Shown here: positions 741-48,283 of the stretch, piece by piece
How positions within the stretch are numbered: position 1 is the first letter of the stretch
Layout of the letters: every line of letters begins with the position of its first letter
Assembly (NCBI RefSeq): GCF_014196765.1
Contig: NZ_JACIEE010000008.1
Span: forward strand, 248,001-312,000
Length of the DNA stretch: 64,000 nt
Source of the DNA: Mycoplana azooxidifex
Lineage (GTDB): Bacteria > Pseudomonadota > Alphaproteobacteria > Rhizobiales > Rhizobiaceae
Direction: 5' to 3'
Made by a program: the position numbers and the translations under genes
Notes under the pieces: model-generated
Database searches by the model: none
Told to the model about the DNA's origin: nothing
The model's input: only the letters and a program-made list of their open reading frames with translations

Positions 741-791
741 CACCGCGCGGACGCGCGGTGGCTGGATGCCGGATCAAGTCCGGCATGACGG
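741..791 (+). repeat. Two-hairpin palindromic element, copy 1
   Basis: The element has two perfect hairpins in a row. Hairpin 1 is CACCGCGCG-GA-CGCGCGGTG (9-base stem, GA loop). After the linker GCTGGA comes hairpin 2, TGCCGGA-TCAAG-TCCGGCA, followed by TGACGG. The same design recurs in opposite orientation at 1210-1260 (48 of 51 bases identical) and twice near 48.1 kb. It is comparable to rhizobial intergenic palindromic elements, though the exact family name cannot be assigned from reading alone. Confidence 0.85.
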
Positions 792-858
792 ATTCGGGGA
801 GGGCGCCCACGCCAGAATGGCATGCACGCGCATCGAAGCGACTAACGCCGCAGGTACC

Positions 859-1149
859 TCATATGCCGTGTAGATAGTGGGCAATATCTGCCCAGTCCGC
901 ATTGAATGCCTCGATCAACTCCAGCTTCCACTTTCGCGGCCAGTTCTTGATCATCTTTTCCTTAGCAATGGCATCGGTCACGAGATCGTATTCCTCGAAC
1001 CACACCAATGTCTTCACGTTATATCGGCTGGTAAATCCGGGTGTCAGGTTGTTCTGGTGCTCAAACAGTCGTCGGGAAAGGTTGCTGGTCACGCCGGTGT
1101 AGAGCGTCCCATTGCGTCCTGACGCGAGAATGTAGACATAGCCTTTCAT
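859..1149 (-). CDS. GIY-YIG nuclease family protein (small, stand-alone)
   Basis: This 96-residue protein is a single GIY-YIG domain of the UPF0213/YhbQ type. It opens with MKGYVYILAS, where YVY takes the GIY position. LYTGVT follows in the YIG position, then the Arg-rich helix SNLSRRLFEH, and KEKMIKNWPRKWK near the end with the catalytic-type Glu. Such proteins are single-domain DNA endonucleases of poorly known role. The ATG at 1149 is preferred; an upstream TTG at 1170 is the alternative. Base composition is near 50% GC, well below the neighbours. The gene lies between two inverted copies of a two-hairpin repeat (741-791 and 1210-1260), which suggests a mobile or repeat-linked cassette. 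Confidence 0.85.
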   Translation of the reverse strand: MKGYVYILASGRNGTLYTGVTSNLSRRLFEHQNNLTPGFTSRYNVKTLVWFEEYDLVTDAIAKEKMIKNWPRKWKLELIEAFNADWADIAHYLHGI

Positions 1150-1209
1150 TCTGTAATTGTGACGTCGCAATCTGGAATTGCAAGAAGCGATAGCCGATTC
1201 CCCAATCAG

Positions 1210-1260
1210 CCATCATGCCGGACTTGATCCGGCATCCAGTCACCGCGCGTCGGCGCGGTG
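1210..1260 (-). repeat. Two-hairpin palindromic element, copy 2 (inverted)
   Basis: Read on the minus strand, this has the same order as copy 1: a GC hairpin with a GA core, the linker ACTGGA, then TGCCGGA-TCAAG-TCCGGCA and TGATGG. It differs from copy 1 at only three of 51 positions. One difference falls in hairpin 1, one in the linker and one in the tail. The two copies face each other across the GIY-YIG gene, hairpin 2 innermost on both sides. Confidence 0.85.
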
Positions 1261-48089: not shown

Positions 48090-48139
48090 CGTCACGCCGG
48101 ACTTGATCCGGCGTCCAGCGCGCTCAAGTCCTTGAGCGC
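48090..48139 (-). repeat. Two-hairpin palindromic element, copy 3
   Basis: On the minus strand: hairpin 1 GCGCTCAAG-GA-CTTGAGCGC, then GCTGGA, then hairpin 2 CGCCGGA-TCAAG-TCCGGCG and TGACGG. Hairpin 1 has a different sequence from copies 1 and 2 but keeps the 9-base stem and GA loop, so the structure is conserved by compensating changes. Confidence 0.8.
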
Positions 48140-48153
48140 AAAGGGTTCCTTTG

Positions 48154-48200
48154 CACCGCGGACGCGGCGCTGCTAGACCCCGGATCAAGTCCGGGGTGAC
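48154..48200 (+). repeat. Two-hairpin palindromic element, copy 4
   Basis: Plus strand: CACCGCG-GA-CGCGGCG (one mismatch), a linker, then CCCCGGA-TCAAG-TCCGGGG and TGACG. It faces copy 3 head-to-head with hairpin 1 of each innermost and 14 bases between them. The TCAAG loop and GGA/TCC stem base are kept in all four copies. Confidence 0.75.
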
Positions 48201-48283
48201 GAAAGACAAGGGTTCGCTTCGAACCATCTGGCCTTCAAGGGTCGCAGGCGCGGCCTGTGACGGGGAGGCGAGCATCGCCCTCG

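Follow-up and report, generated by a model that had tools for sequence, protein, structure and literature searches.

A partnership between a clade of small GIY-YIG nuclease genes and the CGTC-type REPs that flank them is established by our comparisons of sequence. These comparisons reveal the pairing in many lineages, an inverted orientation of the flanking repeats, co-occurrence of gene and repeat across genomes, REPs that are specific to individual paralogues, gene-less and decayed sites, and conserved nuclease motifs. We consider it rather probable, though well short of certain, that the 96-aa protein encoded here is the cognate nuclease of its flanking REPs, that REP-gene-REP forms a small, occasionally mobile unit, and that gene-less REP dimers are its non-autonomous kin. 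As part of this reading, the system is best interpreted, by analogy, as a functional counterpart of REP-RAYT in which an unrelated nuclease does the work. A RAYT-like role for the GIY-YIG enzyme, put forward in the preliminary description of this DNA, is supported by the sequence comparisons and stands as the best-supported reading, with catalysis and transposition as the parts that we infer.

The locus lies near the start of the window, which is the whole stretch of 64,000 nucleotides analyzed here from the genome of Mycoplana azooxidifex (G000). Two 51-base units, at positions 741-791 and 1210-1260, are inverted relative to each other and identical at 48 of 51 bases in a reverse-complement comparison, in agreement with what had first been noticed. 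Each is composed of an inner hairpin and a second hairpin (stem 8 bp, loop 5 nt), as recognized from sequence and fold. On the left, the inner hairpin (741..760, plus strand; 8-bp stem, 4-nt loop) is followed by a CGTC-tagged REP (763..790, minus strand) with its tag, 8-bp stem, 5-nt loop and CCA tail, the tag pointing towards the gene. On the right, a REP with the tag CATC, one base off CGTC, also faces the gene (1211..1238, plus strand), and the inner hairpin at 1241..1260 (plus strand) mirrors that at 741-760. Folded as single-stranded DNA, the units form two hairpins each at -19.6 and -20.1 kcal/mol, with z-scores of -4.5 and -5.6 relative to shuffled sequences and none of 200 shuffles equally stable. 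Also as initially reported, a single small GIY-YIG gene (859..1149, minus strand, 96 aa) lies between the two copies and is low in GC, at 50.9% (859-1149) versus 65.2% for the window. The motif GGATCAAGTCC is present in the window in four exact copies, or five with up to one mismatch (expected 1.14). Sequence and fold also identify a gene-less, REPIN-like dimer of the gene-flanking REP family at 48090..48201, with tags outwards. The only other GIY-YIG match in the genome falls just upstream of the window (G000:C8:246455-246676), in a 698-aa open frame of UvrC-like length; its spacing of ~2.2 kb from the small gene is probably a coincidence.

By stem, loop, tag and tail, the gene-flanking hairpins are CGTC-type REPs, since these features fit the definition of Di Nocera et al. 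(2013; PMC3733652); for the same reason we rejected the idea that the repeat is a private element of this locus. According to the main text of that survey, CGTC REPs are a superfamily with the tag CGTC, often TGTC or CCTC, an 8-9 bp stem, a 4-5 nt loop and a CCA tail, are found mostly as head-to-head dimers, and in some cases are equated with the neisserial dRS3 and rickettsial RPE-4/6 repeats (PMC3733652). Both REPs at the window locus have the 8-bp stem, 5-nt loop and CCA tail, with the exact tag on the left unit and the one-base variant on the right. Dispersal in the window genome is likewise of the described kind. The 18-base hairpin core has 55 matches with up to three mismatches, versus 3 for the reversed pattern, and short gene-less dimers number 14 in the core-match table; their pitch is 90-94 bases and their tags point outwards, opposite to the gene-facing tags of the window locus. 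CGTC REPs seemed to lack a dedicated transposase in the 2013 survey, whose main text reports no RAYT or IS200 genes flanked by CGTC units and has no occurrence of the term "GIY" (PMC3733652).

The protein is little more than a catalytic domain. It passes the Pfam GIY-YIG model (PF01541) with 55.1 bits against a cut-off of 22.6, and the match covers residues 9-82 of the 103 residues in the listed open frame. That frame begins at a TTG at position 1170, which we rejected as the gene start; the ATG at 1149, giving 96 aa, is the likely start codon because relatives, including one annotated gene, begin at that Met. Across 178 sequences, in the 103-residue numbering, conservation is 99% for Y13 and Y24 and 100% for G26, R34 and E71, and it is 99-100% throughout the GIY and YIG motifs. 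We take R34, E71 and the GIY/YIG motif residues to be catalytic. Codon comparison places the gene under purifying selection, with dN/dS among near relatives of 0.02-0.20 for pairs with dS below 1.6. Of solved sequences, the UPF0213 proteins (PDB 1ywl and 1zg2), small GIY-YIG proteins of similar length, come closest, but the similarity to them is weak (E 6e-4 and 4e-3, respectively), as is a match to Slx1 (E 0.06). In phage and defence libraries, no PHROGs and no PADLOC match was found for the window protein, and in NCBIfam its sole match was a sub-threshold one to a group I intron endonuclease.

We assessed the pairing of gene and REPs in two sets of loci. The named set, consisting of the best 80 relatives of the window protein among named genomes, is rich in Rhizobiaceae and includes metagenome bins. 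For the class set, 289 alphaproteobacterial genomes were searched and the gene was found in 103 at E 1e-8 or better; 86 of these contributed one locus each, G000 and 16 genomes outside the listed matches being left out. A strict CGTC-type hairpin was found within 250 bp of the gene at 40 of 80 named loci, and on both sides at 30, versus 266 and 15, respectively, of 11,735 control positions. For the class loci the corresponding numbers were 39 and 21 of 86, versus 1.55% and 0.00% of 11,310 control positions. Hairpin density at the class loci fell from 3.80 per kb at 0-100 bp from the gene to 0.038 per kb at a distance of 2-7 kb. When only intergenic regions were considered, hairpins were present in 50 of 140 gene-adjacent regions versus 4 of 259 elsewhere at the 86 class loci, and in 62 of 135 versus 21 of 453 at the 80 named loci, which bears out the earlier expectation that flanking hairpins would be commoner here than at control sites.

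No strict hairpin was detected within 250 bp at 40 of 80 named and 47 of 86 class loci, in part because tag variants escape the detector; the CCTC-tag form of Sinorhizobium, for example, was missed but seen by eye. In a tag-independent test, the two 300-bp flanks had an exact match of 14 bp or longer in common at 61 of 86 class loci versus 8 of 309 controls, and 35 of the 47 class loci without a strict hairpin passed it. Eleven loci have record titles that we read as non-alphaproteobacterial (L084, L086, L093, L097, L101, L102, L103, L105, L107, L111 and L112), all of them metagenome bins and two titled just "bacterium", and a strict hairpin lies within 1 kb of the gene in all 11. GIY-YIG genes from outside the clade had a strict hairpin or common flank repeat in 0 of 20 cases, and some perfect hairpin in 4 of 20, but this control is weak because 16 of its 18 genomes had no REP match at all. 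The weight therefore rests on the within-locus controls.

The arrangement of the flanking REPs was analyzed with a slightly wider hairpin detector in 180 loci, comprising the 80 named loci and 100 from the class set including paralogues. At 68 of these, a hairpin was found within 300 bp to the left as well as to the right, versus 6 of 12,809 control positions. The nearest pair was inverted at 58 of the 68 two-sided loci and direct at 10 (p 2e-9), with tags outwards at 36 of the inverted loci and towards the gene at 22. Stems of the nearest left and right hairpins agreed at no fewer than 7 of 9 positions at 57 of 68 loci, and those of the best left-right pair at 66, while among 4,556 pairs taken from different loci such agreement was found for 807 (18%) of nearest and 26% of best pairs. 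The commonest layout, at 21 loci, had one REP to the left and one to the right of the gene, both with outward tags. In these loci the gene stands where the spacer of a REP dimer would be; at L105, REP-gene-REP with outward tags spans only 366 bases. A dimer-gene-dimer layout was second, at 14 loci, 13 of them among L033-L062 and titled Rhizobium, Hoeflea, Ciceribacter, Agrobacterium or Rhizobiales. Loci with such titles also account for 19 of the 22 with gene-facing tags, other Rhizobiaceae loci having tags outwards. The possibility that the two gene-flanking dimers are direct repeats of each other was discarded, with 8 direct and 6 inverted among the 14 loci. Array size varies: three REP dimers precede the gene in Sinorhizobium meliloti Ak57 (L143 1860-2440), and Sinorhizobium sp. 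M103 (L155) has one at the hflX-mazG site where Ak57 has three.

We then considered the co-occurrence of gene and REPs in whole genomes, using a REP hairpin covariance model (R1) built from hairpins beside these GIY-YIG genes. Since just 25 candidates per genome in the 289-genome set, or 150 in the relatives, were scored, REP counts are floors. REP matches were found in 121 of the 289 genomes: 85 had both gene and REPs, 18 the gene alone, 36 REPs alone and 150 neither. The odds ratio, in an analysis that ignores phylogeny and genome size, was 19.7 (p 2e-26), or 18 and 22 when at least 5 or at least 10 REP matches were demanded; leaving out the 10 genomes whose hairpins fed the model gave 17.4. 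Among 41 relatives, the median number of REP matches was 32 with the gene and 3 without it. With one genome per genus and a size of at least 3 Mb the difference was modest, with medians of 31 and 5 (17 versus 13 genomes, p 0.03). The association has exceptions on both sides. Of 92 strong gene carriers, 12 had no REP match, and REP matches were found in 36 of 186 gene-less genomes, 13 of which had 10 or more (G106, G118, G239, G265, G272, G284, G309 and six others). Such REP-rich genomes may have lost the nuclease, or another driver may act in them.

Genomes with several copies of the gene allow REPs to be compared between paralogues. One alphaproteobacterial genome, G145, has 11 nuclease matches (L174, L260-L268), the maximum among the matches listed. 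Ten of these loci were inspected: the copies differ in the stems that flank them, several having a type of their own, while a few have none. Two of the stem families recur elsewhere in G145, with 13 and 7 fuzzy matches in all and none for the reversed pattern. Mean stem distance between paralogues was 0.376 (29 within-genome pairs), versus 0.345 between genomes at protein distances of 0.4-0.7, a comparison made with the wide detector, so that part of the hairpins may be chance. Had REPs of the host merely landed beside the genes, paralogues would share them; that their stems differ counts against mere landing. Stem distance increased only weakly with protein distance (Mantel r 0.17, with 1 of 500 permutations as high) and was flat past a protein distance of 0.4. 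Stems are common to close relatives only, and we therefore do not take this relationship as evidence for a fine recognition code.

The occupancy of sites in related genomes is consistent with a gene that moves occasionally. The gene is not fixed at the window site, contrary to the refuting case named in the preliminary description: none of the five sister species viewed has an intact gene at the porin-GST junction, where G000 has one. Between the same inverted REPs as in G000, G004 and G005 contain remnants of the gene. The G005 remnant (L164, G005:C2) consists of a piece of the gene's 5' end in three tandem copies, which is a footprint of decay. G002 has a lone inner hairpin at this junction, G003 a gene-less dimer and G006 a dimer of another stem type; in G001, GST was found without the porin next to it. 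The gene is present at other places in five of the six sister genomes, and G002 has no match. At a second site in the genus the gene is present in G001, G003, G004 and G005. In G000 and G006 the corresponding flank contains neither a gene match nor a strict REP, and the G002 sequence stops at a contig edge. Movement is rare, as the gene at this second site is common to four species.

Comparison of empty and filled sites, which had been suggested at the outset, also yielded gene-less sites in Azospirillum, Sphingobium and Shinella. Azospirillum lipoferum 4B has dimer-gene-dimer between sufB and sufC, and in A. oryzae, A. ramasamyi and strain B510 the suf spacer is without the gene and, by eye, without a REP. 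In Sphingobium, the site is filled in TomMM7A and TomMM15, carries one fused palindrome in TomTYG64 and TomTYG74, and has none in TomTYG72. The fused palindromes resemble what a deletion from one stem arm to another would leave. In Shinella, WSC3-e and HZN7 are filled and H4-D48 is gene-less. In all three genera and in the sister species, the borders of gene-less versus filled sites are not exact, and no target site duplication was recognized by eye in sister spacers that are too diverged.

How might the enzyme act on its REPs? It would most likely recognize the REP as a hairpin or cruciform and nick at or near the CGTC tag, and repair or joining of the cut would then leave a copy of the REP, of a dimer or of the whole unit elsewhere. 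What we infer is that the enzyme cleaves, where it does so, that the cut is then repaired or joined, and that this enzyme rather than something else spreads the REPs; an enzyme that cuts its REPs and thereby spreads them would be the simplest account, and one that parallels REP-RAYT. Like RAYT (TnpA-REP, REPtrons) and REPINs, the system has a small DNA nuclease gene between short palindromes, here flanked by copies of a palindrome that is dispersed in the genome, with gene-less inverted dimers and a palindrome type that depends on lineage. It differs in that the nuclease is GIY-YIG rather than Y1 HUH, in a genome without a Y1_Tnp match, that the palindromes are CGTC-type rather than GTAG-tagged, and that up to 11 GIY-YIG matches per genome occur among the matches listed. 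With an unrelated enzyme and a different tag, it is not a member of REP-RAYT. MITEs offer another likeness, short gene-less dimers being found beside a gene-bearing version with like ends, but the ends here are hairpin units and no target duplication was recognized in the diverged spacers. The CGTC REPs of the 2013 survey agree in tag, stem, loop, CCA tail and head-to-head dimers, the difference being that they seemed, in that survey, to lack a dedicated transposase (PMC3733652) and have a GIY-YIG partner here.

The main rival to a cognate nuclease is a homing-type selfish gene, for which REPs that something else spreads would be landing sites or homology arms. This is unlikely, though a serious alternative. 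GIY-YIG is a known homing nuclease fold (PMC1564403), the gene occupies several sites in a single genus and reaches 11 matches per genome among those listed, and two Sphingobium gene-less sites carry a fused REP-like palindrome. The window gene shares with homing endonucleases of the I-TevI and I-BmoI type the catalytic domain and a variable location, but its product is a nearly bare catalytic domain, no intron or intein was seen at the locus, and matching palindromes stand at both ends. Landing on REPs also fits poorly with gene-less sites that have none, namely the suf spacer in three Azospirillum species (by eye) and the second genus site in G000 and G006 (strict detector), with the strong co-occurrence of gene and dispersed REPs, and with the different REPs carried by paralogues of one genome. 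A housekeeping role is improbable. A structure-specific nuclease, Slx1- or UvrC-like, that resolves REP cruciforms and is selected in REP-rich genomes would agree with the conserved motif residues, the dN/dS of 0.02-0.20, the gene/REP co-occurrence and the weak Slx1 match (E 0.06), but it leaves unexplained the matching inverted pair around the gene, the paralogue-specific REPs and the gene-less and decayed sites.

Gene and REPs could also be passive neighbours, the REPs settling between genes and a non-essential gene tolerating them without any functional tie. That REPs are intergenic and match in 36 of 186 gene-less genomes is in line with this view, which we nonetheless find very improbable given the intergenic-only control (50/140 versus 4/259) and the inverted orientation of the nearest hairpins (58/68) with matching stems; that other GIY-YIG genes are flanked in 0 of 20 cases points the same way, albeit as a weak control with 16 of 18 genomes lacking a REP match. 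No more credible is movement of the REPs by a RAYT or another Y1/IS200 transposase, as proposed for GTAG REPs (PMC3733652), with the GIY-YIG gene as cargo. A Y1 match was found in 7 of 41 relatives, and these tend to have somewhat more REPs (medians 27 versus 13, p 0.06). However, a Y1_Tnp search gave no match in G000, nor in five of the six sister species, with 26-40 REP matches each; among the 24 relatives with at least 10 REP matches, the GIY-YIG gene is present in 17 and a Y1 gene in 6; and in the 2013 survey CGTC units flanked neither RAYT nor IS200 genes (PMC3733652). An anti-phage or regulated defence nuclease that rides by chance in REP-flanked islands seems the most far-fetched. The Caulobacter GIY-YIG genes CCNA_00744 and CCNA_01405, whose clade may differ, are reported to be controlled by XRE regulators, with a phage factor acting as a repressor, and the authors suggest a role in infection (PMC10688885), but for the window protein there is no PADLOC match and the tie to REPs would go unexplained.

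A cognate GIY-YIG nuclease would fill a gap left in 2013, when CGTC REPs, widespread in alphaproteobacteria, were described as lacking a mobilizing enzyme (PMC3733652). The gene is a strong candidate engine for their spread on comparative grounds, and as it is small, specific and expressible, the question is directly testable. If this is true, partner nucleases that spread palindromes have evolved on at least two occasions, and from unrelated folds; GIY-YIG is then to be counted among the catalytic domains behind the dispersal of bacterial repeats, and many genes named just "GIY-YIG nuclease family protein" gain a role. Among the papers listed in our literature search, which covered few subscription papers and no preprints, none links GIY-YIG genes to REPs. 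More tentatively, and with some doubt on our part, CGTC REPs and the GIY-YIG clade may together form a new class of bacterial mobile elements, with units of ~370-520 bp (at L105 and in the window, respectively) in which a bare GIY-YIG domain, the sole protein, cuts and moves its own hairpin ends, found in alpha-, beta-, gamma- and deltaproteobacteria, Elusimicrobia and other phyla, and with dRS3 of Neisseria as a non-autonomous offspring.

Two further loci were observed. In a Neisseria gonorrhoeae record (L146), a relative of the gene lies among clustered CGTC-type repeats that are dRS3-like; the record is filed as a plasmid, and its length of 2.17 Mb suggests that it is a chromosome. At L197 (G243), the gene is flanked by a 59-base inverted repeat that is AT-rich and of a non-standard palindrome type, which suggests that further palindrome families exist.
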